NCBI RefSeq assembly: GCF_014646155.1
Contig: NZ_BMMX01000001.1
Location: forward strand, 731,720 to 795,719
Origin: Mangrovihabitans endophyticus
GTDB lineage: Bacteria; Actinomycetota; Actinomycetes; Mycobacteriales; Micromonosporaceae
Reading direction: 5' to 3'
Length of the DNA stretch: 64,000 nt
Positions 4,030 through 21,107 of the stretch are shown here, piece after piece. The position numbers and the translations under genes were made by a program. How positions within the stretch are numbered: the first letter of the stretch is position 1; every line of letters begins with the position of its first letter. Under the pieces are notes generated by a model. That model was not told where the DNA came from and did not search any database. It saw only the letters and a list, made by a program, of their open reading frames with translations.

Positions 4030-4038
4030 GAGCCCACG

Positions 4039-4953: not shown

Positions 4954-4987
4954 ACGCGCTTATCGGACAAGGAAAGAAGGGATCGAC

Positions 4988-6685
4988 ATGGTCGAGCGCA
5001 GCGAGGGTGTCAGCAGAGACGGCACGCGCGCTCACCCGGCGCGCAACGGCCCGGTCGCCGCCCTCATCGCCTGCCTGCTGGTGCTTGCCGGCTGCTTCGG
5101 CGGCGCGGCCCAGGACGACGAGACCCGGCAGGGCGCGCTGCCGGGAGTGCACCCCGACGACTCGCTGCCCGCGGTGCCGGGCGGCGTCTTCCGGATCGCG
5201 GCCCGCGCCGACGCCCCGTCGCTGGATCCGCTCAAGGAATCGGCCAACTCGACTCACATCGCGGTCGGTTACGTCTACAGCAAGCTGGTCGACTACAAGG
5301 TCGGCAAGGACACGCCGTTCGGCACCCACCAGCTCGAGGGCGACCTGGCCGAGGCATGGGAGACCTCTCCGGACGGGCTGAGTTGGACCTTCCATCTCCG
5401 GCACGGCGTGCGATTCCAGAACGTCGCGCCGGTCAACGGGCGGGAGTTCACCTCGGCCGATGTGGCCTGCACGCTGGACGCCGTCCGCGAGCGCGGACAG
5501 CAGCGTGGCGACATCGGCATGATTCAGTCGTGGGACACACCGGATCCGTACACCGTCGTGTTCACGCTCGCCTCGCCGTACCCGGACCTGGCGGCCAAGT
5601 TCGCCGGGCATTTCCTGTGGATGTTGCCGTGCGAGGGCACCGAGGGACGGTTCGATCTCGCGACGCGGGCGATCGGCACCGGTCCGTTCATGCTGACCAA
5701 GTGGAACAAGGACAAGGAACGCACGTACGCGAAGAACCCGGACTACTACGTCGCCGGCAAACCGTACCTGGACGGACTGCACGTGATCGTGATTCCGGAC
5801 ACCGCCGCGGCGAGTGCGGCGCTGCGCACCAAGAAGGTCGACTTGGTGGCGACGGTCACGGACATGGCCTCCGTGCGGGCGCTGGTGAAGAGCGATCCGG
5901 ACATCTACGTCGCCAAGGAACTGGCCTATCAGCCGACGATCGTCTATATGAACCAGGCGGTGAAACCGTTCGACGACCTGCGGGTGCGCAAGGCGGTGGC
6001 GATGTCCATCGACCGGGCCGACATGCTCACCTCGATCCGGCCGGGTGGCCTGATCTCGGGCCCGGTGACCCCTAAGGTGGCCGGCGCGCTGTCCCCGGCG
6101 GAGGTGCGCGAACTGCAACCCTATGATCCGGAGCGGGCCAGGAAGCTGCTCGCCGAGGCGGGCCTCGCCAACGGATTCACCACCAAGATGATCGTCACCA
6201 ACGGCTACAGCGACACCGTCGTCCGGGAGGCGCAGTGGGTCCAGGAGGACCTCGGCAAGGTGGGTATCAAGGTCGAGATCGACATGCAGGACTACGCCAC
6301 CTATTTCACCAAGAGCTGGGCGGGCAAGGACTACGCGATCGGCGCCGGGCTGCAGACCCCGTGGTTGACCGCCGACGACATGCTCATCAGCCAGTGGTAT
6401 TCCCGGGGCACCCGGAACTGGTTCAACATCGACGACCCGCACCTTGATCAGATGATCCTCGCGCAGCGCGCGGTGCAGGACCCGGCGCGGCGGCTGGAGG
6501 CGCTGAAGGACATCCAGCGCTACATCATCGACAAGGTCTCCAACCCGCTGCCGCTGTACATCTACGAAAGCATCGTCCTGTACGGCGGGTACATGCACGA
6601 CATCCATCCGCAGCCCGACTACGGCTCCCGCGACTACATGAACATGTGGATGGACAAGGACGCCCCCGGCCGCACCGGCGGATGA
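4988..6685 (+). CDS. ABC importer substrate-binding lipoprotein (SBP_bac_5 family)
   Basis: Extracellular solute-binding lipoprotein, 565 residues. The signal peptide ends in the lipobox LAGC at residues 33-36, so Cys36 should carry the lipid anchor. The mature part has the family-5 landmarks: LDPL near the start, an AEAWETSPDGLSWTFHLR segment, VRKAVAMSIDR in the hinge region, and a C-terminal lobe rich in Tyr and Trp. The ATG at 4988 has a GA-rich ribosome site just before it. It closes the importer operon. This class binds peptides, nickel-chelates, opines or sugars, and the ligand cannot be assigned. Confidence 0.92.
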   Translation: MVERSEGVSRDGTRAHPARNGPVAALIACLLVLAGCFGGAAQDDETRQGALPGVHPDDSLPAVPGGVFRIAARADAPSLDPLKESANSTHIAVGYVYSKLVDYKVGKDTPFGTHQLEGDLAEAWETSPDGLSWTFHLRHGVRFQNVAPVNGREFTSADVACTLDAVRERGQQRGDIGMIQSWDTPDPYTVVFTLASPYPDLAAKFAGHFLWMLPCEGTEGRFDLATRAIGTGPFMLTKWNKDKERTYAKNPDYYVAGKPYLDGLHVIVIPDTAAASAALRTKKVDLVATVTDMASVRALVKSDPDIYVAKELAYQPTIVYMNQAVKPFDDLRVRKAVAMSIDRADMLTSIRPGGLISGPVTPKVAGALSPAEVRELQPYDPERARKLLAEAGLANGFTTKMIVTNGYSDTVVREAQWVQEDLGKVGIKVEIDMQDYATYFTKSWAGKDYAIGAGLQTPWLTADDMLISQWYSRGTRNWFNIDDPHLDQMILAQRAVQDPARRLEALKDIQRYIIDKVSNPLPLYIYESIVLYGGYMHDIHPQPDYGSRDYMNMWMDKDAPGRTGG

Positions 6686-7803: not shown

Positions 7804-10752
7804 TCAGATCAGGGCCTTCAGGCGTGCGCGGATCTCCTCCGCGTCGGCATGATCCAGGTCGGTGAGGATGTCCAGGGCGGTCCGCAGCGAGTCGCGGGCC
7901 GCCCCGGAATCTCCGGCTGCCTCGTGCGTGTCGGCCAGCCGGGTCATTGTGTCCGCCTCGAAGTAGCGGTCGCCCAGCGCCCGTACCAGTTCCAGGGCCC
8001 GCGCGTAGCACTCGACCGCGTCCGGATGGTTGCCGAGGTGATGATGCGCGTACCCGATGCTGTCCCAGGTCGTCGCCTCTCCCCAGACGTCCCCGGTGCG
8101 CCGGTGCAGGTCCAGCGCCCGCCGGCAGCAGCGCAGCGCCTGCGCGTAGTCGCCGAGCAGGCAATGATCCCAGCCGATCGAGTTGAGCGCGTCGGCCTGG
8201 CCCGGCAGGCTGCCGGCGGCTTCGAACAGCGCCAGCGCCTCCCGGTCGTGGCGCAACGCCTGCCGCGGGCGGCCCAGCCGCTCGCACAGCGAGGCCAGGG
8301 CTCGGTGGGTGTGCGCCTGCCCCGCGCGATCGCCGGCCCGGCCGAACAGGTCGAGCGCGCGGTGCAGATGCTCGTCGCTGTGCGTGTAGTGTCCCCTGCG
8401 GTTGTCGGCCCGGCCCAGGTCGCGGTACGCGTGAGCGGCGGCGACCGGATCACCGAGCCGGCCCGCGGCGTCCACGGCCACCTGCCACATGCGTGAGCGA
8501 TCGGGCCAGAATCCCCGTCGGTGCAGGAACGTGTCCAGCGCCCAGACGAGTTGCCAGGCCCGCCGGTCGTGGCCGGTGTCCACGGCGAGCTGCACCACCC
8601 CGAGCAGCACCTGATGTTCGGCGGTCAGCCAGGCGCGCGCCTGGGCGTCGTCGCCGTGCCGGTGCACCGTCGTGCCCGGCGACGGCTCGCCGGGCGGCAG
8701 CGGAATCGCATCGCGGGCCGGGTCCAACAGCCGGTCTGCCGCGAGGCAGGTGTGCAGGTAGTGGTCGAGCAGCCGCCGGGTCGCCGCGTCGCGTTCGGCC
8801 GCCGGGTCGGTCTCCCGGCACAGATCCGTCGCGTACGCCCGGAGCAGGTCGTGGCTCGCGAAGCGTCCCGGCGAACGTTCGGTGAGCAGGTTCGCCGCGG
8901 TCAGCTCGGACAGCAGGATGGTCGCCCGCGACGCTGCGGTCCCCGCGAGGCAGGCCGCGGCGTCCGCGTCGATGTCCGGGCCGGGGTGCAGACCGAGCAG
9001 ACGGAACAGGCGCGCGGCCGGGTCGCTGAGCGCGCGACAGGACCAGGAGAACACCGCCGCCACGTCCGAGCTCGGATCGCCCGCGTCCAGCGCGCTCAGC
9101 CGACGGCGCTCGTCGGCCAGGTCCCGGGCCAGCACGTCGAGCGGGAATCCCGACTGGCTCGCGCGGGCCGCGGTGATGCCCAGCGCCAGCGGCAGCCGGG
9201 CACAGTGCACGATGACCCGGTCGGTCGCCTCGGGCTCGGCCGCCACCCGGTCCGCGCCCAGCCGCGACTCCAGCAACGTGTGCGCCTCGGCCGTGGACAG
9301 CAGGTCGAGGGCGATGGCGTGCGCCCCCTCCACCGCGACCAGCGGGGTCAGCCGGTTGCGGCTGGTGATCAGGCAGAACGCCGCCGGGCCGCCGGGCAGC
9401 AGCGGCCGCACCTGGGCGGCGTCGCGGGCGTTGTCGAGCAGGATCAGCACCCGGCGGCCGGACAGCAGGCTCCGGTAGAGGTCCGCAGCAGCCTCCGGGT
9501 CGTCCGGTACGCGTTCCCCGGTCACGCCCAGGGCGAGCAGGAATCGGCGCACCACGGCGGACGGCGGCACGATCAGGCCGGAGCCGTCGAAGCCGCGCAG
9601 GTCGGCGTAGAGCTGCCCGTCGGGGAAGCGTTCGCGGACCCGCCGTGCCCAGTGCACGGCGAGCGTGGTCTTGCCGACGCCGGCCGTGCCCGAGACCGCC
9701 GAGACGATCGCCGTGGACGGGTGTCCCGGCGTGTCGAGCAGCGCGTCCAGGTCGCGCAGCGCCTCCCGGCGTCCGACGAAGCCGGCGGCGGCGGCGGGTA
9801 GCTGGGCCGGCCGCGGGAAGGGCGTCCGGGCGGCCCCGCGCGGCGGTGCGATGGCCGGTGCGGCGGTGGGTGGGGAAGCCGGCCGGGGCAGTTGGTCGCG
9901 CAGCACGGCTTGGTGCAGGGCCTGCAGCTCGGGTGCCGGCTCGGCACCGAGTTCCTCGGCCAGCCGGGCCCGCAGCGCGGCGTAGTGTTCCAGCGCCTCG
10001 GCGACCCGTCCGGCCTGGGCGAGTGCCCGCATGAGCGCACCCGCCAGGGGTTCGGCCATCGGGTATTCGCCCACCAGGTTCCGGAGCACGACGGTGACCC
10101 GGTCGCCGTGGCCCAGCCGCAACTCGGCGTCGGCCCACGCCACCACCGCGTCCAGGCGGTGCTGATACCAGGCGGTGCGGCTGCGGTCCGCCCAGCCGCC
10201 GCGCACGTCGGCGAGGGGAACCCCCTGCCACAGATCGAGCGCCGGGCGCAGCAGCGCCACGCGCGCCGGATCGGAGTGTTCGGCGATGCCGGCGGCGGTG
10301 AGCCGCCGGAACCGATGCAGGTCGATCAGCTCGGTGTGGATGTCGAGCAGGTAGCCGGCGGGCTGCCGGACCAGTCGGACCGGCCCGCCGCCGGTGGCCG
10401 CCGCGAGGACCCGGCGGATCCGGGCCACGTGCGAGTAGAGCACCTCGCGCCAGGCCCGGGGCGGGTCCTCGTCCCAGACCCGGGCGGCCAGCGCCTCCGT
10501 CGGCACCGGCCGTCCGGCTTCGACCGCGAGGATGGCCAGCACGGCGCGCATCTGCGCGCGCCCCAACGGAAGCGGTCGGCCATCGGCGCTGACCTGCACC
10601 GGGCCGAGCAGACGTACCTCCACATTCGCCACTGCCGGGGACAAAGAGGCCACCACGGCATTGACGGTACACAATGTCTCGCCCGCGAGATGCCTGAAGC
10701 TAGACGCCGCCTGTTGGCCGATATCTAGCGATCGCCCTACATGGCGCGACAT
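7804..10752 (-). CDS. SARP-family regulator with NB-ARC and TPR domains (AfsR-like)
   Basis: Large cytoplasmic transcription activator, up to 982 residues. Order of domains: an OmpR-type winged-helix DNA-binding domain beginning at VRLLGPVQV (residue 46), a bacterial transcriptional activation domain to about 290, an NB-ARC ATPase with P-loop SGTAGVGKTTLA near 350-362 and LILLDNARDAAQV near 430-445, then TPR-like helical repeats over roughly 660-975. The first 43 residues precede the domain and look unlike coding sequence of this family, so the true start may be internal, for example the GTG at 10623. It is divergently transcribed from the biosynthetic operon at 10883, which makes it the likely pathway regulator. 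The 3' end carries a duplicated CAGGGCCTTCAG. Confidence 0.88.
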   Translation of the reverse strand: MSRHVGRSLDIGQQAASSFRHLAGETLCTVNAVVASLSPAVANVEVRLLGPVQVSADGRPLPLGRAQMRAVLAILAVEAGRPVPTEALAARVWDEDPPRAWREVLYSHVARIRRVLAAATGGGPVRLVRQPAGYLLDIHTELIDLHRFRRLTAAGIAEHSDPARVALLRPALDLWQGVPLADVRGGWADRSRTAWYQHRLDAVVAWADAELRLGHGDRVTVVLRNLVGEYPMAEPLAGALMRALAQAGRVAEALEHYAALRARLAEELGAEPAPELQALHQAVLRDQLPRPASPPTAAPAIAPPRGAARTPFPRPAQLPAAAAGFVGRREALRDLDALLDTPGHPSTAIVSAVSGTAGVGKTTLAVHWARRVRERFPDGQLYADLRGFDGSGLIVPPSAVVRRFLLALGVTGERVPDDPEAAADLYRSLLSGRRVLILLDNARDAAQVRPLLPGGPAAFCLITSRNRLTPLVAVEGAHAIALDLLSTAEAHTLLESRLGADRVAAEPEATDRVIVHCARLPLALGITAARASQSGFPLDVLARDLADERRRLSALDAGDPSSDVAAVFSWSCRALSDPAARLFRLLGLHPGPDIDADAAACLAGTAASRATILLSELTAANLLTERSPGRFASHDLLRAYATDLCRETDPAAERDAATRRLLDHYLHTCLAADRLLDPARDAIPLPPGEPSPGTTVHRHGDDAQARAWLTAEHQVLLGVVQLAVDTGHDRRAWQLVWALDTFLHRRGFWPDRSRMWQVAVDAAGRLGDPVAAAHAYRDLGRADNRRGHYTHSDEHLHRALDLFGRAGDRAGQAHTHRALASLCERLGRPRQALRHDREALALFEAAGSLPGQADALNSIGWDHCLLGDYAQALRCCRRALDLHRRTGDVWGEATTWDSIGYAHHHLGNHPDAVECYARALELVRALGDRYFEADTMTRLADTHEAAGDSGAARDSLRTALDILTDLDHADAEEIRARLKALI

Positions 10753-10882
10753 TAGGTTGTTAGCGCATTAAGAGGTTAATAACGGGCATTCGGCGGCGCG
10801 AGGACGGTGGTCCGGGCCGGAGAGGACTGGGGTGGTTCGCAACGGCGCGCACGCGCGCGCCGCACCGTGAGGGGTGCTGCGG
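10753..10882. promoter_or_regulatory. Divergent control region between the SARP gene and the biosynthetic operon
   Basis: This gap must hold the promoters of both divergent transcripts. It starts with an unusually AT-rich patch (about 10751-10790) with the related words GGTTGTTA and GGTTAATA 19 bases apart, then becomes very GC-rich with an alternating GCGC tract around 10846-10862. No consensus promoter or perfect operator stands out. GAGGGG at 10869-10874 is the likely ribosome site for the operon's first gene. Confidence 0.4.
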
Positions 10883-11842
10883 GTGAAGTCGACCTATCTG
10901 CAAGACCTGGCCTTTTCGCTGGGTGCCATCGGCGGCTCGGTCAAGGACGCGGAACGCGAGGGCCTGCTGCGTTCCAGCGCCGACGACCTGGCGGCGGCCG
11001 GTTTCGACAGGCATCATCGTTGCCCGCCGGACGAGACCGCGTACGACCTGGCCCGCGCCGCCGTGACCGGCCTCGACGTGGCCGACGGGGTCGACGCCAT
11101 CATCTACAGCACGTGCCTGCCGGGCAACGGCTCGGTGGGCGATCCCGCCGCGTTCGCCGCCGACCGGGACGTGAAGCATCTGATGGAGTTCCCGGCCAGC
11201 CGCCTGCAGGCCGACTTCGGGCTCGGCTCCGCGGTGGTCTTCGGGCTCAGCCAGCAGGGCTGCACCGGGATGCTCGGCGCGCTGCGCCTGGCGGATGCGT
11301 TGCTGGCCCGCGAGTCCGGGTGGTCGCGGGTGTTGTGCGTGGCCGCCGACCGGTTTCCGGCCGACGCCGTGTACGAGCAGTCCTACAACCTGATCTCGGA
11401 CGGGGCAGCCGCGTGTGTCGTCTCCGCCGCGCCCCCGGGTCTCCGGCTGGTCGCGGCGCATCAGATCACCAACGGTGGCCTGCACGCGGCGACCGACGAC
11501 GAATCGGTCGGCACCTTCTTCTCGTACGTCCCCCGGCTGGTGCGTGACTGCCTGTCCCGCGCCGGCCTGACGATCGGCGACATCGACTGGGTGGTGCCGC
11601 AGAACACCAATCACAACGCCTGGCAGATCCTCGCCCGGCTGCTCGGGGTCGATCCGTCGAAGGTCTGGCAGAAGTCCCTGCCGGAAACCGCGCACGCCAT
11701 CTCGGCCGACAACATCATCAACCTCAAGTCGCTGCGGAACGCCGGGCGGATCCGGCCCGGCGAGCGAATCCTGCTGGTGATGGCCGGGCACGGCCTGAAC
11801 TGGCAGGCGGTCGTCCTGGAAGCGACGGAAGGACTGGCATGA
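10883..11842 (+). CDS. KAS III (FabH)-like ketosynthase/acyltransferase
   Basis: Thiolase-fold enzyme of the 3-oxoacyl-ACP synthase III family, 319 residues. The Cys-His-Asn triad is visible: Cys127 in QQGCTGM, His244 in PQNTNHNAW and Asn277 in ISADNIIN. I chose GTG 10883 over the in-frame GTG at 10874 because GAGGGG sits 8 bases upstream of 10883. KAS III relatives in secondary metabolism do either decarboxylative condensation or plain acyl transfer to O or N nucleophiles (CerJ type). Beside an amino-acyl carrier-protein system, an acyl-transfer role joining the amino-acyl unit to an acceptor is plausible but unproven. It is the first gene of the operon and overlaps the next by ATGA. Confidence 0.88.
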   Translation: MKSTYLQDLAFSLGAIGGSVKDAEREGLLRSSADDLAAAGFDRHHRCPPDETAYDLARAAVTGLDVADGVDAIIYSTCLPGNGSVGDPAAFAADRDVKHLMEFPASRLQADFGLGSAVVFGLSQQGCTGMLGALRLADALLARESGWSRVLCVAADRFPADAVYEQSYNLISDGAAACVVSAAPPGLRLVAAHQITNGGLHAATDDESVGTFFSYVPRLVRDCLSRAGLTIGDIDWVVPQNTNHNAWQILARLLGVDPSKVWQKSLPETAHAISADNIINLKSLRNAGRIRPGERILLVMAGHGLNWQAVVLEATEGLA

Positions 11843-12753
11843 CATCCCCGCATCTCGCCGCTCGCGGCGTCCGGCTCCGCTCCGCGATCGAAGCCATGTC
11901 CGGCACGGTGGATCGGCTCACCGAGCAGTCCCGCGTCAAGTACAGCAACCCCTACGCGGCGCTGAGCTGGCCGGACGCCGTGGACCCGGAGGCCGACTGG
12001 TTCTTCACCCCGGAACTGCTGTCGCCGGCCGGGACGGCCGTCATGGAGCGGCTCAGTGACCGGCAGTCGCGGGTGCTGGCGTTCCACGAGTCGGCCAACT
12101 TCTTCAGCCTCAACATCCACGGCGAGAAGTCGCTGATGGAGGGTCTGGCGAAGCGCCTCTACCGCAGCGACCTGGTGGACATCTCGGACTACCTGCATCA
12201 CTTCCTCGATGAGGAGAACAAACACAGCGTCTACTTCGGCGGCTTCTGCCGGCGCTATGCCACCCTCTACCGCAGCCGGCACGTCCCGTTCCAGGAGGGC
12301 CCGGACCGGGCCGTCGCCGACTTCCTGTTCTTCGCCAAGGCGCTCATCTTCGAGGAGCACGCCGACCGCTACAACGTCATCCAGGGCCGCGACGACCGGC
12401 TGCACCCGCTGGCCCGGTTCATCAATCAGGCCCACCACGCCGACGAGACCCGGCACCTGGTCTTCAACCGGGCCATCGTCGACGCGCTGTGGCAGACCGA
12501 CGCGCCCGACTGGGACGACCGGCAGCGCGCCGAGATCCGCGCCCGCCTCGGCCAGTTCTTCGTGGCCACGTGGCGGGAGTACTACAACCCCGACGTGTAC
12601 GCCGCATCCGGCCTCGACGACCCCTGGCAGGTCGCCGAGGACGCGTGGGCCCATCCGCGACAGCGGCGGCAGCGCCGCGAGATGTCGGACAAGTGCCTGC
12701 GCTTCTTCCTGTCCCACGGCATTCTCACCGAGGAGCCCGCCGATGCCTTCTGA
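11839..12753 (+). CDS. AurF-like diiron N-oxygenase
   Basis: Protein of 304 residues resembling AurF-family (p-aminobenzoate N-oxygenase) non-haem diiron enzymes, which oxidise amines to hydroxylamine, nitroso or nitro groups. Likely iron ligands follow the AurF pattern: a Glu near residue 96, E126xxH129 (EENKH), Glu172/173 (FEEHADRYN), His199, and E203xxH206 (DETRH). The gene lies between a KAS III-like gene and a carrier protein / amino-acyl ligase pair. I therefore infer that the substrate is an amine held on a carrier protein rather than a free aromatic amine. The start overlaps the preceding stop (ATGA). CmlI-type arylamine oxygenases and beta-hydroxylases of related fold are alternatives. 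Confidence 0.8.
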   Translation: MTSPHLAARGVRLRSAIEAMSGTVDRLTEQSRVKYSNPYAALSWPDAVDPEADWFFTPELLSPAGTAVMERLSDRQSRVLAFHESANFFSLNIHGEKSLMEGLAKRLYRSDLVDISDYLHHFLDEENKHSVYFGGFCRRYATLYRSRHVPFQEGPDRAVADFLFFAKALIFEEHADRYNVIQGRDDRLHPLARFINQAHHADETRHLVFNRAIVDALWQTDAPDWDDRQRAEIRARLGQFFVATWREYYNPDVYAASGLDDPWQVAEDAWAHPRQRRQRREMSDKCLRFFLSHGILTEEPADAF

Positions 12754-13000
12754 TCCGGACGAGCTGCACTCCTGGGTGCTGCGCAAGGCGCGGGACCTGC
12801 CGCCGGAAGGACTCACCGACGACCTTCCGCTGCTTGCCGGGCGGCACTTGACCTCGCTGCACATCCCCGAGCTGATCCTGCTGCTGGAACGGCTGCGCCG
12901 GCGACCGATCGACGTCGAGCAACTGTGCGCCGGAGACTTCCGCGACCTCGCCACCATCCGGGCGCGGTTCCTGCACGCCGAGCCGGGCGAGCTCGCATGA
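12743..13000 (+). CDS. Small stand-alone acyl/aminoacyl carrier protein
   Basis: Protein of 85 residues with carrier-protein architecture. The presumed phosphopantetheine serine is Ser38 in HLTSLHIPEL, where the usual Asp before Ser is Thr. The region after it (LILLLERLRRRPIDVEQL, then DFRDLATIRARF) matches helices II-IV of ACPs. It overlaps the upstream oxygenase gene by 11 bases and the downstream amino-acyl ligase gene by ATGA. Carrier proteins encoded next to class II synthetase paralogues are their known substrates, so this one probably holds the amino acid while it is modified. The non-canonical TSL motif makes it easy to miss in domain searches. Confidence 0.75.
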   Translation: MPSDPDELHSWVLRKARDLPPEGLTDDLPLLAGRHLTSLHIPELILLLERLRRRPIDVEQLCAGDFRDLATIRARFLHAEPGELA

Positions 13001-13869
13001 CCGGCCACCGTCCGCCCGGACTGCGGTGGAGCGACCTCGGCCATGCGGCGTTCAGCGGACCGCTGCGGGAGCTGGCACACGCCTGCGACGAGGCGTTCCG
13101 AGGGATGGCCGCGCGCTGGTCGGCCGACGCCGAGGACCACGCCGCGGTGGTCGCGGCGGCCGACCTGGCGCCGATCGGATATCTGCGGTCGTTCCCGCAC
13201 CTGGCCACCTTCGCGACCGCGCTGGACCCGGAGGGGGACAATCTGAGCGCCTTCGCCGCGGACCCGTCCGACGCCCGCACCGGCGCGGTACGGCTGACCG
13301 GCCTGGCCGCCACGACCGGCGTGCTGACCCCGGCGGCCTGCTATCACGTCTACATCCAGCACCGCGGCGAGGAGTTCACCGGCCCCCGCTACATCACGAC
13401 GCAGAACACCTGTTTCCGCCGCGAGTCCCACTACCAGCCGCTGCGCCGCCAGCACAGCTTCCGGATGCGGGAGATCGTCTGTCTGGGCACCCGCGAGGAG
13501 GTGACGGCGTTCCTGGACGAGAACCGGCGGCTCACTACACGTCTGCTCACGGCGCTCGGCCTGCCGGACGACTGGGTCGCCGCGACCGATCCGTTCTTCG
13601 ATCCCGCACATCACCCCGGCTACCTCGCGCAGAAGCTCCAGCCGACGAAGCACGAGGCCCGGTACGGCGATCTCGCGGTCGCCTCGGTCAACCTGCACGA
13701 GGACCACTTCGGATCGGCTTACCACATGCGCCGCGACGGCCGGGCGGTCAGCAGCGGCTGCATCGCCTTCGGCATCGAACGCTGGCTGTTCGCGCTCGTC
13801 GACCGTTGGGGGACCGAGCACACCGGCTGGCCGGACCCGCGAGACGCGCTCGCGGAGGTCCTCGCGTGA
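12997..13869 (+). CDS. Amino acid:carrier-protein ligase (class II aminoacyl-tRNA synthetase-like)
   Basis: Protein of 290 residues related to the catalytic core of atypical (archaeal-type) seryl-tRNA synthetase but lacking any tRNA-binding arm. Class II motif 2 is seen as CFRRESHYQPLRRQHSFRMRE (residues 139-159) and motif 3 as SGCIAFGIERW (residues 253-263). Cys115, Glu159 and Cys255 fall at the spacing of the three zinc ligands of this family, where zinc reads the amino group of a small amino acid. Known homologues from Bradyrhizobium and others adenylate glycine or alanine and pass it to the phosphopantetheine of a neighbouring carrier protein. That fits the adjacent 85-residue carrier protein exactly. 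Which amino acid is used here is not known; glycine is my first guess. Confidence 0.85.
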   Translation: MTGHRPPGLRWSDLGHAAFSGPLRELAHACDEAFRGMAARWSADAEDHAAVVAAADLAPIGYLRSFPHLATFATALDPEGDNLSAFAADPSDARTGAVRLTGLAATTGVLTPAACYHVYIQHRGEEFTGPRYITTQNTCFRRESHYQPLRRQHSFRMREIVCLGTREEVTAFLDENRRLTTRLLTALGLPDDWVAATDPFFDPAHHPGYLAQKLQPTKHEARYGDLAVASVNLHEDHFGSAYHMRRDGRAVSSGCIAFGIERWLFALVDRWGTEHTGWPDPRDALAEVLA

Positions 13870-14993
13870 CCCGCCGCGTGCTCGTCACCGGCGCGGACGG
13901 CTATCTCGGCCTGCGTACGGTGCAGCGCCTGCTGGCCGAGACCGACGACCGGCTGGTGCTCAGCGTGCGGGCGGCGGACCGCACCGAACTGGCGGACAAG
14001 AAGTCCCGCCTGGAGCGGGAAACCGGGACCACGGCACACCGCCGGGTGGAGGTGGTGCCCGCGGACCTCACCGAGGACGCGCCGCTGGCCGGGGTCGCCA
14101 CCGACCTGGCATGCATCGTGCATGCGGCCGCCCGGACGAACTTCGACATCGGCCGGGACACCGCGCGCCGGGTCAACGCCGACGCGACCGCCCGGGTTGC
14201 CGAGTTCGCCGCCGCCTGCCCCCGGCTGGACCGGTTTCTGTTCCTGTCGACCCTGGTCAGCGTGGGCTGCCGGACGGGCGACATCGCCGAGACGGTCACC
14301 GAGGGCGACGTCGAGCACGCCAACCACTACGAATGGTCCAAGGAACAGGCCGAACGCCGCCTCGCGGAGCGCTTCGCGCACCTGCCGTGGTCCATCGCCC
14401 GCCTGTCCACGATCGTGGCCGACGACGACACCGGCCGGGTCACGCAGTACAACGCCTTTCACAACACGCTGAAGATGTTGTTCTACGGCCTGCTCAGCCT
14501 GATGCCGGGGCTGCCGGACACCCCGCTGTACCTGGCGACCGCCGAGTTCACCGCTCGCGGCATCGTGCGGCTGACCCGGCCGGAGACGGTCGGCGGCGTC
14601 TACCACCTCGCGCCGTCGCCGGACGAGGCGGTCCCGCTCGGCGACGTGATGAACACCGTCTTCGACATCTTCGAACGGGACCCGGCCTTCGTACGCCGGC
14701 GGTTGCTGCGCCCGGAGTTCTGCGACCTCGGCACCTTCGCGTTCATGGTCGACGCCACCCGCGGTCTCGGCGCCAGCCCGGCGGCCGGCGCGCTGCGCTC
14801 GGTGGCCCCGTTCTCCGAGCAGATGTTCCGCCCCAAGCGTTTCGACAACTCCCGGCTGCGCGCGTCCTGGCCGGACGCCCCGGCCGCATCCGGTCTCCCG
14901 CTGGTCGCGGCGACGTGCGCCACGCTCGTCGGCACGCGCTGGGGGAGAAACCCTGCCCCGAACGGAGTGACACCCGATGCCGTCCCTCAGTGA
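13866..14993 (+). CDS. Extended SDR, thioester-reductase / fatty acyl reductase-like
   Basis: Protein of 375 residues with an N-terminal Rossmann motif TGADGYLG (residues 8-15) and the extended-SDR catalytic set: Ser in LFLSTLVSVG and YEWSK as Tyr-x-x-x-Lys. The overall pattern is that of the NAD-binding-4 / male-sterility group, which includes the reductive-release domains that turn a carrier-bound thioester into an aldehyde or alcohol. In this operon a carrier-bound acyl or amino-acyl group is the likely substrate. GTG start in a GTGA overlap with the ligase gene. An epimerase-type reaction on a free substrate cannot be excluded. Confidence 0.75.
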   Translation: MTRRVLVTGADGYLGLRTVQRLLAETDDRLVLSVRAADRTELADKKSRLERETGTTAHRRVEVVPADLTEDAPLAGVATDLACIVHAAARTNFDIGRDTARRVNADATARVAEFAAACPRLDRFLFLSTLVSVGCRTGDIAETVTEGDVEHANHYEWSKEQAERRLAERFAHLPWSIARLSTIVADDDTGRVTQYNAFHNTLKMLFYGLLSLMPGLPDTPLYLATAEFTARGIVRLTRPETVGGVYHLAPSPDEAVPLGDVMNTVFDIFERDPAFVRRRLLRPEFCDLGTFAFMVDATRGLGASPAAGALRSVAPFSEQMFRPKRFDNSRLRASWPDAPAASGLPLVAATCATLVGTRWGRNPAPNGVTPDAVPQ

Positions 14994-15564
14994 CAACGAC
15001 CGCTGGCTGCTGAGCTACTACCGCAGCTCCGAGATCAACGCGGCGCTGTTCTTCGGCCGCGTCTCCCGCATGGTCAAGCCGGGCGAACTGCAAGCCGAGG
15101 TGACGCACCACTTCGCCGACGAGGCCAACCATGCGAAGTACTGGAATCAATGCATCAACGACCTGGACGCGTATCCGATCAAGATGCGTGAGTCCTATCA
15201 GGACCAATATCTCGACGCGGTGGGCATGCCGAGCAACCTGATGGAGGTCATGGCCATCACCCAGGTGCTGGAGAAGCGGGTGATCGGACAGTACCGTCGG
15301 CAGCTACGCGTGCCCGGCCTGCACCCGCGCGTGAAGCAGACCCTCGACCAGATCATGCTCGACGAGCGCTGGCACATCCAGTATGTGCGCGACGCCCTGG
15401 AAGACATGAAGGACCGCTACGGCGCCGATCACATCGAGGCGACACTGGACAAGTTCACCCGAGCCGACCAGGAGGTCTACGCCAAGACCCTGGCGGAGTA
15501 CGGGGAACGCGTCGACTTCCTCGGCGTCCGCCCGGAATTCCTCGGCGGCCCGGACGACCTGTGA
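14977..15564 (+). CDS. Ferritin-like diiron oxidase/desaturase
   Basis: Protein of 195 residues predicted to be an all-helical ferritin-like four-helix bundle. The full diiron ligand set is present: Glu19, Glu49xxHis52 (DEANH), Glu99 (VLEKR) and Glu130xxHis133 (DERWH). Enzymes of this type carry out O2-dependent hydroxylation, desaturation or N-oxidation. I do not recognise a characterised close relative. It is the second diiron protein in the operon. The ATG at 14977 has a GGAG ribosome site 9 bases upstream and overlaps the preceding gene by 17 bases. Confidence 0.75.
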   Translation: MPSLSDNDRWLLSYYRSSEINAALFFGRVSRMVKPGELQAEVTHHFADEANHAKYWNQCINDLDAYPIKMRESYQDQYLDAVGMPSNLMEVMAITQVLEKRVIGQYRRQLRVPGLHPRVKQTLDQIMLDERWHIQYVRDALEDMKDRYGADHIEATLDKFTRADQEVYAKTLAEYGERVDFLGVRPEFLGGPDDL

Positions 15565-16445
15565 CGCGAGTGCCCGGCGTCCGGTTCTTCCTCGGGCGTG
15601 AACCCTTGCCGGTCGCCGAACTGACCGGCGGCGAGGCCGCGCAGTACGCCGCGCTGCCGCCACACGGGCCGCGCCGGCGCGCCTGGCTCACCGGTCGGCA
15701 CGCGCTGCGCCGGGCGCTGGTCTGGACCGGCCGCCCGGCCGACACGTCGCGGGTGACCTTCCCGCACGACGCGGTGTCGCTGTCCTACTCCGGCGCGATC
15801 GCGGTGGTCGCCGCCACCGACGGCGCCGTCGCCGGGATCGGGGTGGACGTGGAAACCGGTCCGCCACCGGACATCGAGACGGCTCGGGTCTTTCTGCGCG
15901 ACGGCGAGTTGCGGATGCTGCGGCGGCTGCCGCCGCCGCGACAGCCGGGCGCGTTGCTGCGGTGGTGGACGGTGAAGGAGGCGCTGTTCAAGGCGGATCC
16001 GGACAACCACCTCGGCGGCCTGCGGCGCTATGTCCTCGGCACCCCGCCGGGCGGCGGTGGCGTCGCCCGCCGCGCGGCCGGCCGGTGCGGTGCCGGCCTC
16101 TCGTACCGAAGTTTCGCGCTGCGCCGGGGCTACCTGAGCGTGGCCCTGGCTCTCGACCCCACAAGGAGCGTTCCCCCGATGGCAAACCGCGACTTCTCCG
16201 AACTGGCGGCGAAGCTGGCCCCGCTGATCTCCCGGCCGGCCGCCACCATCAGCCCGGACCTGACGATGAACGACCTGGCGCTGGACAGCATGACCGCCGT
16301 CGAGATGGTCGTCGACCTGCAGGAGGACTACGACATCCTGCTGTCCCGTGCGGACCTGGAATCCTGCGCCACCCTCGGCGACCTGGCCGAGCTGATCTGG
16401 TCGCGCCTGCCGGGCGCCGCCGGGAACGAGCCGGTCCGTGGCTGA
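15561..16445 (+). CDS. Phosphopantetheinyl transferase fused to a carrier protein
   Basis: Protein of 294 residues. Residues 1 to about 200 are an Sfp-type 4'-phosphopantetheinyl transferase: GIGVDVE (92-98, with Mg ligands Asp96 and Glu98) and WWTVKEALFKA (135-145, Glu140). Residues 207-294 are an acyl carrier protein with the attachment Ser243 in LALDSMTAVEM. The fusion would let the transferase activate its own carrier domain, and it may also serve the other carrier proteins and the giant synthase. An in-frame ATG at 16179 with a good ribosome site means free carrier protein may be made as well. GTGA overlap with the upstream gene. Confidence 0.83.
   Translation: MTRVPGVRFFLGREPLPVAELTGGEAAQYAALPPHGPRRRAWLTGRHALRRALVWTGRPADTSRVTFPHDAVSLSYSGAIAVVAATDGAVAGIGVDVETGPPPDIETARVFLRDGELRMLRRLPPPRQPGALLRWWTVKEALFKADPDNHLGGLRRYVLGTPPGGGGVARRAAGRCGAGLSYRSFALRRGYLSVALALDPTRSVPPMANRDFSELAAKLAPLISRPAATISPDLTMNDLALDSMTAVEMVVDLQEDYDILLSRADLESCATLGDLAELIWSRLPGAAGNEPVRG
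16163..16181 (+). promoter_or_regulatory. Internal ribosome binding site and in-frame start for free carrier protein
   Basis: AAGGAG at 16163-16168 lies 10 bases before ATG 16179, in frame with the transferase/carrier fusion. Starting there gives an 88-residue carrier protein beginning MANRDFSEL. The residues just upstream (DPTRSVPP) are not part of either domain and look like a leader. Either both a fused and a free form are made, or two ancestral genes have lost the stop between them. Confidence 0.6.
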
Positions 16446-17025
16446 CCCGGTGCTGCTGCTTCTGCTGCTCGACTTCGGCCTCATCGCGGCGCTGCCGCGG
16501 ATCTTCTTCCGCCGTGACGGCAGCTTCAACGCGCGATGGTGGTCCACGGCGCTGCCGGTCGGCGCGACACCCGTCGTGCTGGTCCTCGGCCGCGCGCTGC
16601 CCCTCGACCCGATCGTGCCGGCCGGCTGGCTGGCGATGACCGGGCTGGTGGCGGTCGCCGCCGCGGCGCTGTCCATCGGATTGATCGCGTTGACCCTCGG
16701 CACGCACCGCATCCCCATCGCGCTGTGGCACCAGAACGACGACGCCCCACGGCATCTCGTCACGTGGGGGGCGTACCGGCTGATCCGGCATCCCTTCTAC
16801 GCGGCCTTCCTGCTCGCGTTCGCGGCAGCGTTCCTGGCCTTCCCGCACTGGCTCACCGCCGCCGCGCTGGTCTACATGACCGTCATGCTCAACGCCGTCG
16901 CCGCCCGCGAGGAACGGCGGCTGAGCGACTCGGAGTTCGGCGCGGAATACCGCGAGTACGTCGAGCGCTCCGGCCGGTTTCTGCCCCGGCTCACACCCGC
17001 CGGGCAGCCGGAGGTGACCTCGTGA
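16438..17025 (+). CDS. Isoprenylcysteine carboxyl methyltransferase (ICMT/PEMT)-like membrane methyltransferase
   Basis: Membrane protein of 195 residues with about four or five helices. It carries the family SAM-binding features GAYRLIRHPFYAAF (residues 111-124, RHP at 117-119) and, near the C-terminus, AREERRLSDSEFGAEYREY (from about residue 154). The family methylates carboxylates, phosphoethanolamine or other polar groups at the membrane using S-adenosylmethionine. In this operon it is the only methyltransferase, so it could methylate an N-oxygenated or carboxyl group of the product. The acceptor is unknown. GTG start, overlapping the carrier-protein gene by 8 bases. Confidence 0.75.
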   Translation: MADPVLLLLLLDFGLIAALPRIFFRRDGSFNARWWSTALPVGATPVVLVLGRALPLDPIVPAGWLAMTGLVAVAAAALSIGLIALTLGTHRIPIALWHQNDDAPRHLVTWGAYRLIRHPFYAAFLLAFAAAFLAFPHWLTAAALVYMTVMLNAVAAREERRLSDSEFGAEYREYVERSGRFLPRLTPAGQPEVTS

Positions 17026-17873
17026 CGGCGCGGCCCGCGATTCTCATCACCGGGTGCTCGACGGGTGTCGGCAATGCCGTCGCGTGGCGGTTCCTGCGCG
17101 CCGGATTCCCGGTCTACGCCACCGCCCGCGACGTCGCCGCGCTGCGCGACCTGGCCGCCGCGGGCGCCGTGACGCTGACCCTGGACGTGGCCGACGAGGC
17201 GGACCGGGTTGCCGCGGTCAAACGCGTGGAGGCCGACCACGGGGCGGTCGGCATCCTGGTCAACAACGCCGCGTACGGCATCCAGGGCGCCATCGAGGTG
17301 GCACCGCTGGACCGGGTGCGGCAGATGTTCGAGACCAACGTCTTCGGGCAGGCCCGGCTCAGCCAGCTCGTACTGCCGGCCATGCGTGAGCGCGGCGCCG
17401 GCCGCATTGTCAACCTGTCCGCCATGGGCGGCAAGTTCTCGCTGCCCGGCGCCGGGTACCTGCACGCCTCCAAGTACGCCGTGGAGGCCGTCTCCGACGC
17501 GCTGCGCCGCGAGGTGCGCGGCTTCGGCATCACGGTGGTCGTCGTCGAGCCGGGACCGATCCACACGGCGTTCCCGGGCAAGATCAACGCGACCCTGCCC
17601 CCGCCGGCCGGCGGTGTGTACGACGACTTCCACCGCTCGGTCGAGCAGCGTGTCGCGAAGGCGTACGCGGACAAGGCGGTGAGTTTCGCCCAGAGCGCCG
17701 ACCAGGTGGCCCGGGTCGTCGAGCGCGCCGCGCTCACCCGGCGGCCCCGTGCCCGCTACGCCTCCGGCGTGATGGCCCGCGGCCTGATGCTTGTCGCCCG
17801 GCTGTGCCCGGACGCCGTCGTCGACCTGATCATGCGTACCCAGTTCCCCGGTCCCCAGGCGGTGTCGTCGTGA
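17022..17873 (+). CDS. Classical SDR protein lacking the catalytic tyrosine
   Basis: Protein of 283 residues with a classical SDR fold: cofactor motif TGCSTGVG (10-17), NNAAYG near 84-89, the Ser in VNLSAMGG, and PGPIHTAF after the active site. The catalytic motif should read Tyr-x-x-x-Lys. Here Lys151 is preceded four residues earlier by Leu147 (GYLHASK), with a Tyr displaced to position 146. The usual proton donor is therefore missing unless Tyr146 substitutes. It could be a reduced-activity reductase, a binding protein, or an enzyme with changed chemistry. GTGA overlaps on both sides tie it to the operon. Confidence 0.8.
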   Translation: MTARPAILITGCSTGVGNAVAWRFLRAGFPVYATARDVAALRDLAAAGAVTLTLDVADEADRVAAVKRVEADHGAVGILVNNAAYGIQGAIEVAPLDRVRQMFETNVFGQARLSQLVLPAMRERGAGRIVNLSAMGGKFSLPGAGYLHASKYAVEAVSDALRREVRGFGITVVVVEPGPIHTAFPGKINATLPPPAGGVYDDFHRSVEQRVAKAYADKAVSFAQSADQVARVVERAALTRRPRARYASGVMARGLMLVARLCPDAVVDLIMRTQFPGPQAVSS

Positions 17874-19504
17874 GTGAATTCCTCGACCGTGTGATCGTGA
17901 CGGCCGCGCGCACCGAACGCGGCCTGGTCACCGGTGAACCCGGCGCGCCGCACCGGCAGACCTGGGCCGCGCTGCACCGCCGGGCGCGGGAGATGGCCGC
18001 GGCCCTGATCGCCGACGGGGTGCGCCCCGGTGACGCGGTCGCCGTCCTGGCCGCGGAGCCGGTCCTCATCGCGCCCGTGGTGCAGGCGGCCTGGCTGGCC
18101 GGTGCCAGCGTCACCATGCTGCACCAGCCGACCGCGCGCACCGACCTGCAGGACTGGGGCGATCACACGCTGCGCGTGCTGCGGCTGATCGGCGCCCGCA
18201 CCGTGCTGCTGGGGGAGTCGTTCGGGATCGTCGCGCCGATGCTCGCCGAGCGGACCATCGCGCACCGCCTGATCTCGGAGCTGACCGGCGCTCCGGCGGC
18301 CACCCTCCCGGCGCCGGTCGGCGAGGACGACGTCGCCCTGCTCCAGCTCACCAGTGGCTCGACGGACGACCCGAAGGCCGTGCGGATCACACATCGCAAC
18401 CTGCTGGCGAACCTCACCAGCATCGCCGGCCACGGCCGGCTCGACCCGGACGACGAGGTCATCGTCTCCTGGCTGCCGCTCTTCCACGACATGGGCATGG
18501 TCACGTTCCTGGCCCTGCCGATGCTGCTGGGCATCGAGACGGTTCAGGTCACCCCGGTGGACTTCGTCAACAACCCGCTGCTGTGGATCGACCTGCTGAG
18601 CCGCTACCGCGCCACGATCACCGGAGCGCCCAATTTCGCGTACGCGGTGACGGGCCGCGCCATGCGGCGGCTGACCGGCGGCGAGGGCTACGACCTGTCC
18701 CGGCTGCGCGCCGCGCTCAACGGCGCGGAGCCCATCGACGAGGACGTGGCGCGCCGCTTCATCGCCGCCGCTGCGCCGTTCGGCCTGCGCCCGGAGAGCC
18801 TCGTCTGTTCCTACGGCATGGCCGAATGCACCGTCGCCATCACCGCCCGCCCCCTCGGCGGCGGGCTGAGCGTCGACGTGGTGCAGGCCGGCCCGATGGA
18901 GACCGGCGACCGGGCCGAACCGGCGAACGGGACGGTGGCCGCGCGGCCCCTGGTGAAGCTGGGCCCGCCGCTGTCGGGCATCGAGGTGAAGGCGGTCGGG
19001 GTGGACGGCGCCCCGCTCGGCGACCGGGCGATCGGGCGGCTGTGGATCCGCGGCGACTCGGTCACCCCCGGATATCTCACCGCGCAGGGTCCGGTGGGGG
19101 CGCAGGACGCGGACGGCTGGCTGGACACCGGCGACCTCGGCTATCTGGTCGACGGCGAGGTGGTGATCTGCGGGCGCGCCAAGGACGTGATCATTCTCGG
19201 TGGCCGCAACCTCTACCCGACCGACATCGAACGCGTCGTCACCTCGGTGCCGGGCGTGCGCAGCGGCAACGCGGTCGCCGTCCGGATCGACGCGGGCACC
19301 GGACGGGAGAGCTTCGCCGTCGTCGCCGAATCCAAACTCGACGACGACGCGGACATCCAGCGCCTGATCCAGGACATCACCAGCCGGGTGGTGAACGTCG
19401 TCGGAGCCCGCCCAAGCAGGATCGCCATCGTGCCGCCCGGATCCCTGCCGAAGACCCCGTCGGGCAAACTCAGGCGATCCTCGGCTGCGCTTCTGCTCGG
19501 ATAG
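17870..19504 (+). CDS. Acyl-AMP ligase (ANL superfamily, FAAL-like)
   Basis: Adenylate-forming enzyme of 544 residues. The phosphate-binding motif LTSGSTDDPKAV is near residues 159-170, SWLPLFHDMGM near 200-210 is characteristic of fatty acyl-AMP ligases, the A5-type motif is CSYGMAECT, GWLDTGDLGYL follows, and PKTPSGKLRR is near the C-terminus. FAALs activate a carboxylic acid as acyl-AMP and hand it to a carrier protein rather than CoA. The carrier domain two genes upstream is an obvious partner. The substrate could be the polyketide acid released by the thioesterase or a separate small acid. The GTG at 17870 (GTGA overlap) is the start. Confidence 0.87.
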   Translation: MSEFLDRVIVTAARTERGLVTGEPGAPHRQTWAALHRRAREMAAALIADGVRPGDAVAVLAAEPVLIAPVVQAAWLAGASVTMLHQPTARTDLQDWGDHTLRVLRLIGARTVLLGESFGIVAPMLAERTIAHRLISELTGAPAATLPAPVGEDDVALLQLTSGSTDDPKAVRITHRNLLANLTSIAGHGRLDPDDEVIVSWLPLFHDMGMVTFLALPMLLGIETVQVTPVDFVNNPLLWIDLLSRYRATITGAPNFAYAVTGRAMRRLTGGEGYDLSRLRAALNGAEPIDEDVARRFIAAAAPFGLRPESLVCSYGMAECTVAITARPLGGGLSVDVVQAGPMETGDRAEPANGTVAARPLVKLGPPLSGIEVKAVGVDGAPLGDRAIGRLWIRGDSVTPGYLTAQGPVGAQDADGWLDTGDLGYLVDGEVVICGRAKDVIILGGRNLYPTDIERVVTSVPGVRSGNAVAVRIDAGTGRESFAVVAESKLDDDADIQRLIQDITSRVVNVVGARPSRIAIVPPGSLPKTPSGKLRRSSAALLLG

Positions 19505-19508
19505 CGGC

Positions 19509-21107
19509 GTGAAAGCCTTATCCGCGCCGCGCGAGGCCACCGCGCCGCCGGTCGGGACCGCGCCGCCCGTCGGGACCGCGCCGCCCGTCGGGACCGCGCC
19601 GCCCGTCGGGACCGCGGCGGCCCGGCCCGCGTACCGCCCGCTCGTTCTCGTCGCGGGCGCCGTCGCGGTGCTGCTCGCCGCGACCAGTTCCCGGGTGGGC
19701 GCGTTCGGCGACGAGTTGTACTTCGTGGCCGCCGGCCGCCATCCGGACTGGGGTTACGTGGACCAGCCACCGCTGGTGCCGCTGCTGGCCCGCCTGTTGT
19801 GGGACGTGTCCGGCGGCTCGCTCGTCGTGTTGCGCCTGCCCGCCACGCTGCTCACCGCGCTCGCCGTAGTGGCCGCCGGGCTGATCGCGTACGAGATGGG
19901 CGGCAGCCGACGTGCGCAGGTGCTCACCGCCGCGGTCGCCGGGGTGTCCTCGGGCCTGCTGGCCACCGGGCATGTGCTGGCCACGTCCACCGTCGATCCG
20001 GTGCTGTGGATCCTGGTGACCTGGCTGCTGGTGCGCTGGCTGCGGCTGCGCGACGACCGCCTGCTGCTGGCCGCGGGCCTGCTCACCGCGCTGGCCGTGC
20101 AGGTGAAGTTCCTCATCGGAGGGTTCTGGCTGGTGCTGATCGTGGCCGTGCTCGTGGCCGGGCCGCGCGAGATGCTGCGCCGGCCGCTGCTCCTTCTCGG
20201 CGGGGTGGTCACGGTGGTGTCGCTGGCCCCCGGGCTGGTGTGGCAGGCCCGGCATGGGTGGCCGCAACTGGAGATGGCCTCGGTGATCGCCGCCGAGCAG
20301 CAGCAGACCGCCGGGGGACGGGCCGCGTTCCTGCCGTTGACGGTCGTGATGGCCGGGATCGCGGCAGGCGCCGTGCTGGCCGGGCTCGGGCTGTGGCGGC
20401 TGCTGCGCGGCCCGTACCACTTCCTGGGCCTGACCGTGGTCGGCGTGCTCGCGCTCTTCCTGATCGGCGGTGGGCGGCAGACGTACGCGAGCGGGCTGTT
20501 GCCGGTGTGCTGGGCGGCGGGCGCGGTCCGGCTCGATGCGTACCCGGCCCGGCTCGACGGCCGCCCCGCGTCGCGGGCGTGGCGGTGGCTCACGCATCCG
20601 CTGAGCCTCGCGCTGACGCTGGTGGTCACCGTGCTGGCCGCGCTTCCGGTACGGCCGGTGGCGCAGCAGGTCCAGGTGGACTATGTGGCGCGCGGCAGCA
20701 CCGGGTGGCCCCGGCTGGCGGACACGGTGGCGAGGGCGTACGCGGACCTGCCGGCCGGGCAACGGTCCCGGGTGAGCCTGGTGGCGGACACGTTCTGGCA
20801 GGCTTCCGCGCTTGAGGTGTACGGACCGGCCCGCGGCCTGCCGCGTCCGTACAGCCCGAACCGCGGCTACGGGTATTTCGGCGAACCGCCGGAACGGGCC
20901 CGCAACACGCTCTACGTCGGGGTGGATCCCGGTGCGCTGCGGAGCGCGTTCACGGACGTACGACAGGTCGCGAAAATGTCCAATCCGGACGGTTTTGTGG
21001 AGCAGAATGGCGTTGTCCCGGTTTGGTGGTGCACCGGCCGGACGGTCTCCTGGGCGCGTCTCTGGCCGGGTCTTCGGCACGCCGACACTGCGCCGTTGAC
21101 CTGGTAA
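19509..21107 (+). CDS. GT39-like polytopic membrane glycosyltransferase
   Basis: Membrane protein of 532 residues with about ten or eleven helices after a low-complexity N-terminus. The GDELYF motif before the first extracytoplasmic loop and the following YVDQPPLVP match the catalytic Asp-Glu region of the ArnT/PMT-type GT-C transferases, which move a sugar from a polyprenyl-phosphate donor to an acceptor outside the membrane. Residues from about 8 to 36 are four APPVGT repeats. Codon 4 is TTA (19518-19520), a rare leucine codon that ties expression to the bldA tRNA in streptomycetes. It follows the ligase gene by 4 bases and may decorate or modify the product, or be unrelated and merely co-transcribed. 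Confidence 0.72.
   Translation: MKALSAPREATAPPVGTAPPVGTAPPVGTAPPVGTAAARPAYRPLVLVAGAVAVLLAATSSRVGAFGDELYFVAAGRHPDWGYVDQPPLVPLLARLLWDVSGGSLVVLRLPATLLTALAVVAAGLIAYEMGGSRRAQVLTAAVAGVSSGLLATGHVLATSTVDPVLWILVTWLLVRWLRLRDDRLLLAAGLLTALAVQVKFLIGGFWLVLIVAVLVAGPREMLRRPLLLLGGVVTVVSLAPGLVWQARHGWPQLEMASVIAAEQQQTAGGRAAFLPLTVVMAGIAAGAVLAGLGLWRLLRGPYHFLGLTVVGVLALFLIGGGRQTYASGLLPVCWAAGAVRLDAYPARLDGRPASRAWRWLTHPLSLALTLVVTVLAALPVRPVAQQVQVDYVARGSTGWPRLADTVARAYADLPAGQRSRVSLVADTFWQASALEVYGPARGLPRPYSPNRGYGYFGEPPERARNTLYVGVDPGALRSAFTDVRQVAKMSNPDGFVEQNGVVPVWWCTGRTVSWARLWPGLRHADTAPLTW
19542..19613 (+). repeat. Four tandem 18-bp repeats in the GT39-like gene
   Basis: Four head-to-tail copies of an 18-bp unit (GCGCCGCCCGTCGGGACC, first copy with one change) encode APPVGT four times in the cytosolic N-terminal tail. 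The 18-bp period keeps frame, so copy number could vary between strains without breaking the gene. Confidence 0.9.

Follow-up and report, generated by a model that had tools for sequence, protein, structure and literature searches.

A recurrent ten-gene operon beside a giant polyketide synthase in Mangrovihabitans endophyticus is likely an independent biosynthetic cluster

Ten genes of Mangrovihabitans endophyticus (genome size 7.58 Mb) form an operon at positions 10883-19504 of a 64,000 nt stretch of contig NZ_BMMX01000001.1. This whole stretch is referred to as the window, and coordinates are window positions unless another locus is named. From kas3 through the gene for an acyl-AMP ligase-like enzyme, each gene overlaps the next by 4-17 bases (Table 1). 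A giant polyketide synthase (PKS) is encoded downstream. We consider it likely that the operon is independent of this PKS. On balance, we also regard it as probable that the ten genes are a small cluster of their own, which serves the PKS neither with a starter unit nor in tailoring, and that they specify a six-step pathway in which a carrier-bound amino acid would be oxidised at its nitrogen and combined with a fatty acyl partner. Gene content, operon structure, active-site residues, recurrence without a nearby PKS match and the complementary occurrence of two enzymes that use S-adenosylmethionine (SAM) can be read from the sequences. An earlier note on this DNA had named eight activities in one coupled operon. 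All eight are encoded there by overlapping genes, along with two which that note had omitted: a fusion of phosphopantetheinyl transferase (PPTase) and acyl carrier protein (ACP), and a short-chain dehydrogenase/reductase (SDR).

The gene set is more than a chance assembly because its content and order recur across many unrelated genomes. A scan of named genomes with fer, the gene for a small ferritin-like diiron enzyme, as query returned at least 38 further loci; exact short patterns were required, so that this number is a lower bound. By database label, 23 belong to Actinomycetota, 9 to Pseudomonadota, 2 each to Melainabacteria and Acidobacteriota, and 1 each to Omnitrophota and Dormibacterota. 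Thirteen of the 38 loci are under 15 kb, and 25 are 15 kb or longer. Outside the window, genes were called by a simple script which missed some of them, and presence was scored by tblastn. Among the 39 loci (window included), fer, being the query, is found in 39, the thioester reductase in 38, the ligase in 37, kas3, aurf (AurF-like N-oxygenase) and cp (carrier protein) in 35 each, ppt and acp in 32 each, the acyl-AMP ligase in 30, and the methyltransferase gene icmt in 28. The 4 loci devoid of aurf are short or left-cut contigs; contigs of short or cut type are L098, L099, L101, L106, and L108, the last of these (Dormibacterota) carrying ligase, reductase, fer, and DUF3419 only. On contigs long enough, the core kas3-aurf-cp-ligase-reductase-fer largely recurs in the same order. 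Most actinomycete loci are arranged as kas3-aurf-cp-ligase-reductase-fer-ppt/acp-(MmpL)-icmt-acyl-AMP ligase. In proteobacterial, Melainabacteria, and Acidobacteria loci, the acyl-AMP ligase and icmt, where kept, mostly come first.

Within the family of the host, the fer search matched 7 of 300 genomes, its own included, and 4 of the others are strong matches (56-64%). Three genomes (G438, G454, G473) carry kas3, aurf, cp, ligase, reductase, fer, acp, icmt, and acyl-AMP ligase; the ppt query returned nothing in these three. A fourth (G471) has a rearranged set with ppt and without icmt, its sole acyl-AMP ligase match being far away. The MmpL and acyl-AMP ligase of G438 are 100% identical to those of L089 (Catellatospora bangladeshensis NBRC 107357). 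G438/L089 and G473/L092 are very probably the same records and hence not independent.

The earlier note had coupled the cassette to the PKS, and this coupling was not supported. The PKS (21200-62428) is a single modular protein of 13,742 residues. Its loading module is made up of a KSQ ketosynthase (TGQSSG, with Gln at the active site), an acyltransferase with a YASH motif and an ACP; seven more ketosynthases come after it, and a thioesterase ends the protein. With such a loading module the PKS should prime itself, and the YASH motif suggests propionate as the starter. Its first ketosynthase was matched in none of the 38 loci, of which 25 are at least 15 kb, so that a more distant PKS is possible. 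No PKS matches were found among the gene calls in the 26-34 kb around the cassette in G438, G454, and G473. In G471, one gene call matches part of the PKS; by eye, it is a stand-alone quinone-oxidoreductase-like protein. The glycosyltransferase gene between cassette and PKS (19509-21107) is confined to the window among the 39 loci. The cassette might still supply an N-oxidised glycine unit to the PKS, leading to an enteromycin-like product: both are on the same strand, and the gaps are only 4 bases from the acyl-AMP ligase to the glycosyltransferase and 92 bases from there to the PKS, so that co-transcription is possible in the window. Given the self-priming PKS and its missing counterparts elsewhere, we consider such a supply very improbable. 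It is also disfavoured by the akazaoxime pathway, for which the accessible part of PMC9967187 gives the authors' prediction that glycine is loaded on a nonribosomal peptide synthetase (NRPS); the operon has no NRPS gene by Pfam. On the same grounds the cassette was rejected as a member of the enteromycin/akazaoxime class, to which the earlier note had tentatively assigned it. A diiron oxygenase and a methyltransferase are common to the enteromycin carboxamide/akazaoxime pathway (PMC9967187, as far as accessible) and the cassette, and glycine, used there, is perhaps used here.

The amino-acid arm is formed by the ligase, the carrier protein and the AurF-like enzyme. The ligase core is closest to class II aminoacyl-tRNA synthetases (aaRS) of the atypical SerRS type (NF005479, 1.8e-39; PRK00960 serine--tRNA ligase, 6.7e-13). 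Judged by the NF005479 model (135.5 bits, with 357 required by NCBIfam for an equivalog) it is a relative, not an equivalog. Its residues 49-283 match PDB 3mey, the ligase Bll0957 (Amino acid--[acyl-carrier-protein] ligase 1), with 2.8e-26. C115 (36/36 homologues), E159 (36/36), and C255 (37/37) are invariant, and 3mey has identical residues at the aligned positions; we take this Cys, Glu, Cys set to be the Zn ligands of the ligase family. Thus most of the Bll0957 core is matched and the Cys/Glu/Cys set is kept, whereas the window ligase stays below the equivalog cut-off and its specificity is a prediction. The cp gene adjoins the ligase gene, and Ser38 of the carrier protein is invariant in 35/35 homologues. 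From this arrangement, the ligase would probably load an amino acid on its own dedicated carrier protein.

The AurF-like protein matches its family profile, and its predicted model is nearest in fold to CmlI and AurF. E96, E126, H129, E172, H199, E203, and H206 are invariant (35/35). Of these, E172, H199, E203, and H206 correspond to AurF residues in an alignment of low significance (E 0.21), and E96, E126, and H129 were assigned by motif. A seventh His on top of the six metal ligands is characteristic of N-oxygenases according to the accessible part of PMC13061610, and all six ligands and the seventh His are found here. The part of the earlier note which proposed a tethered amino acid followed by N-oxidation thus fits the ligase, its own carrier protein and the AurF/CmlI-type enzyme; its enteromycin and PKS parts do not fit. 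Glycine would be the substrate, and a nitronate or an oxime the product.

The same three genes occur in other settings. A ligase match was found in 52 of 397 genomes of the host's order, its own included. From the better of 60 ligase matches, 20 neighbourhoods were picked by hand, and 12 of these contain an AurF homologue; with three plasmid loci, this gives 15 other AurF-carrier protein-ligase triads. The gene order in the triad is the same as in the cassette. A nitronate monooxygenase homologue is present in 7 of these 15 loci and, by annotation, directly follows the ligase gene in Tistrella mobilis plasmid pTM2 and in Streptomyces NBC_01431. Such homologues are absent from all 38 cassette loci, and none was found in the window operon by Pfam. 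The cassette instead has the reductase, fer, the KAS III-like protein, the acyl-AMP ligase/ACP pair and a SAM enzyme. In an AurF tree from a quick search, 36 cassette sequences (from 35 of the 39 loci and G471) are on one side of a branch with SH-aLRT (approximate likelihood ratio test) support of 100, and the 15 AurFs of the other triads are on the other side. The absence of nitronate monooxygenase and the separate AurF branch therefore point to a distinct use of a triad which exists in other settings. He and Ryan reportedly presented, in Nat Chem in 2021, cassettes for glycine-derived nitronates; these are probably the same triads and may carry this ligase. Their work is cited in PMC9967187 and PMC12154687.

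Alternatively, a carrier-bound nitronate might be degraded, yielding nitrite or some other reactive nitrogen donor that serves a different step. The two triads directly followed by nitronate monooxygenase, and its occurrence at 7/15 loci, fit this idea. For the cassette we consider it very unlikely, as the monooxygenase is missing from all loci, the AurFs branch separately, and the reductase and acyl arm would be superfluous. For L074, the pTM2 locus with its AurF-carrier protein-ligase-nitronate monooxygenase set (8751-12036), one might speculate that the set is a source of the second nitrogen of C-diazeniumdiolate siderophores; a reference in the accessible part of PMC11659414 names this strain as a producer of these. 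In several triad loci, a family of 309-363 residue proteins is encoded upstream of the AurF-like gene (L071, 9574-10665; L072, 9930-10859; and relatives). The L071 copy has no Pfam match at 1e-5.

In acyltransferases of the CerJ/ChlB3 type, the active Cys acts with His and Asp of a C-terminal motif. Cys127, His271, and Asp276 of the KAS III-like protein are invariant (34/34), and the His and Asp are aligned with those of ChlB3, the best PDB match of the window protein itself (7.8e-11). Identity to CerJ/ChlB3 is low, however, and a profile search ranks ordinary FabH first (2ebd, 7.2e-19). The His of the FabH HQAN motif is replaced by Gln240 in 34/34 sequences, so that the Cys-His-Asn set is not found; a FabH function was rejected on this change. 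In the thioester reductase, T8, G12, G15, Y155, and K159 are invariant, corresponding to an NAD(P) motif and YxxxK. Its nearest PDB sequences are MxaA (7.4e-22) and the AusA reductase domain, CAR is among the matches, and TIGR01746 is matched with 89 bits, below its cut-off of 213. PPTase and ACP share a single open frame in 16 of the 39 loci and are encoded separately in 13, with one or both undetected in 10. The acyl-AMP ligase matches NF005850 with 739 bits (cut-off 572) and the MbtM model with 374 bits, below the cut-off of that model. The fer alignment (A2) leaves out L080, L082, L084, and L104 (4/38), and alignments A3, A4, and A5 took in 23/35 aurf, 24/38 reductase, and 21/35 kas3 sequences, near-copies and odd starts having been dropped.

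The small diiron enzyme, in which E19, E49xxH52, E99, and E130xxH133 are invariant, could be placed in either arm. Folds of the MiaE, VlmB, and bacterioferritin type come close in score to aldehyde deformylating oxygenase, so that fer is no more than a candidate for the latter. If the amino acid were not glycine, fer might act on the amino-acid arm, in N-N or azoxy chemistry as in VlmB. This we consider quite improbable. For fer, PDB 3ez0, aldehyde deformylating oxygenases and MiaE reach equal or higher scores, and no VlmA-, VlmH-, or VlmO-like genes are among the Pfam matches of the operon, where no sequence search for them was made. Moreover, a fer relative (30%) is located between an ACP-like small protein (by eye) and an acyl-AMP ligase homologue (31%) at 8870-11395 of L070 (genome G145); around this row, no match to aurf, cp, or ligase was found.

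The final group of enzymes is represented by two alternatives. At E 1e-5, icmt was detected in 28 of the 39 loci and DUF3419 in 7; none has both, and the 4 with neither are all left-cut contigs. Zero overlap would arise by chance with a probability of about 1.5e-7 if the 35 informative loci were independent, which they are not. Mapped on the trees, the two states change 2 times for aurf and 4 times for the reductase, with well-supported branches forcing 2 of the changes in each. In G471, a partial DUF3419 match adjoins the cassette. DUF3419 is the BtaA family, whose members transfer a 3-amino-3-carboxypropyl group from SAM onto the hydroxyl of a lipid. On the simplest reading, the ICMT and DUF3419 enzymes would cap one common group of a lipid-like product. 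DUF3419 is followed by a GNAT acetyltransferase in L088 (11535-13798) and fused to GNAT in L094 (1284-3557) and L097.

Taken together, these assignments suggest the following pathway. (1) The ligase would adenylate a small amino acid, probably glycine, and attach it to the 85-residue carrier protein. (2) The AurF/CmlI-type enzyme would oxidise the nitrogen of the tethered amino acid, yielding an oxime, a nitro group, or a nitronate. (3) The PPTase would convert the ACP fused to it to the holo form, the acyl-AMP ligase would charge this ACP with a fatty acid, and fer would oxidise the ACP-borne chain or an aldehyde derived from it. (4) The KAS III-like protein, with its CerJ/ChlB3-like Cys-His-Asp set, would transfer one acyl group onto the other partner. 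(5) The thioester reductase would release the product. (6) The SAM enzyme would cap an oxygen, with a methyl group (ICMT type) or, in other species, with a 3-amino-3-carboxypropyl group (DUF3419/BtaA-like). We infer every substrate, the order of the steps, the lipid nature and the product.

Several observations, in addition to the short distances to the PKS, weigh against this account. For fer, none of the Foldseek matches reaches E 0.001, and the fold matches are unspecific. NF005850, the NCBIfam model that fits the acyl-AMP ligase best, bears the name long-chain-fatty-acid--CoA ligase. The window copy of this enzyme is 55-59% identical to those of L075/L076 and 24-34% to the others, so that the acyl chain may differ. 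No ligase is detectable in L111, and no carrier protein in L112. Related loci in the icmt/DUF3419 count are not independent, and L088 (Nocardia stercoris) has DUF3419 together with a divergent PF04140 protein (icmt query, E 1e-3); the exclusivity of ICMT and DUF3419 is thus not absolute. Many of the 38 loci are from metagenome-assembled genomes, in which misbinning can introduce false taxa.

Among published pathways, ham comes closest in logic of those we found. As far as PMC11659414 was accessible, ham/pvf (fragin, valdiazen) has in common with the cassette a tethered amino acid, an AurF-like N-oxygenase and a reductase domain; one NRPS-like protein is used there, whereas the window has separate genes for an aaRS-like ligase, carrier protein and reductase. 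The Pfam matches of the operon include none of the remaining gene types of ham. The cassette might accordingly follow a Ham/Pvf-like route, in which the tethered amino acid is N-hydroxylated only and the reductase releases an N-hydroxy amino aldehyde, which is then N-acylated to a hydroxamate or condensed, with no nitronate being formed. The same logic is indeed present in the window. We regard this route as unlikely, given that the operon lacks an NRPS gene by Pfam and that nitronate monooxygenase is frequent at the other triads, which argues for deeper oxidation in the wider family. Fragin has a fatty acyl partner. The six-step pathway set out above is retained as the preferred reading.

The nocuolin A cluster (noc), according to the accessible part of PMC5333925, has in common with the cassette acyl-AMP ligases, ACPs, an acyl-ACP reductase, and two distantly AurF-like proteins. 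PKS and NRPS genes, an aminotransferase and an N-monooxygenase are part of noc, and an aaRS-like ligase is unmentioned there; noc was rejected as a match because of this different gene set. PMC13291983, in its accessible part, was rejected as a description of the cluster, as its ICMT and reductase mentions concern other clusters. In the open-licence literature, no paper was recognised as describing this cluster, most subscription papers being outside that search.

Table 1. Genes of the operon and the divergent regulator upstream of it in the window.
Gene product	Coordinates	Strand	Remarks
KAS III-like acyltransferase (kas3)	10883..11842	+	PF08541 7.9e-18
AurF/CmlI-type diiron N-oxygenase (aurf)	11839..12753	+	PF11583 5.1e-31, 108.3 bits, cut-off 29.6
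85-residue carrier protein (cp)	12743..13000	+	without Pfam match; Ser38 probable attachment site
Amino acid:[carrier protein] ligase-like, class II aaRS fold family	12997..13869	+	NF005479, PDB 3mey
Stand-alone thioester reductase	13866..14993	+	TGADGYLG, YxxxK; reductase-domain relatives
Second, small ferritin-like diiron enzyme (fer)	14977..15564	+	Pfam matches all below cut-off
PPTase-ACP fusion	15561..16445	+	ACP part from ~16179
Membrane ICMT/PEMT-type SAM methyltransferase (icmt)	16438..17025	+	RHPFY motif
SDR oxidoreductase, accessory	17022..17873	+	copy with at least 50% identity in 5/38 relatives
Acyl-AMP ligase-like enzyme	17870..19504	+	NF005850
Divergent regulator (BTAD, NB-ARC, TPR)	7804..10752	-	putative cluster member only

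Further upstream, on the same strand as the operon, a peptide-type ABC transporter set is encoded at 991-6685 (two ATPases, two permeases, and a binding protein, assigned by eye). Beyond the PKS, a gene row on the opposite strand occupies 62505-64000 and extends to about 66456 in joined coordinates (L031). In it, an O-methyltransferase (PF01596) is followed by FkbH-like, acyl-CoA dehydrogenase-like, ACP-like, and dehydrogenase-like genes (by eye). Judged by these genes, the row looks like a methoxymalonyl-ACP set for the PKS.

With this analysis, about ten conserved genes are united as one recognisable cluster family across unrelated bacteria and are set apart from a misleading PKS neighbour, and the AurF-carrier protein-ligase triad is seen in a setting other than that with nitronate monooxygenase. 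In named strains such as Streptomyces bohaiensis 11A07 and Catellatospora bangladeshensis NBRC 107357, the set occurs with no PKS match close by, so that its product can be looked for directly, and the exchange of one SAM-dependent enzyme for another offers a testable clue to the site at which the product is modified. As a tentative proposal, which we hold to be rather doubtful at present, the cassettes might specify an undescribed lipid family in five or six phyla by database label, in which a carrier-bound N-oxidised amino acid would be linked to an oxidised fatty chain and an oxygen capped by either of two interchangeable SAM-derived groups, methyl from an ICMT-type or 3-amino-3-carboxypropyl from a DUF3419/BtaA-type enzyme. 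If this is true and the capped atom is the N-O oxygen, the cassette would represent a new route to nitronates, oximes, or hydroxamates of the O-alkyl type, among them compounds that bear homoserine.

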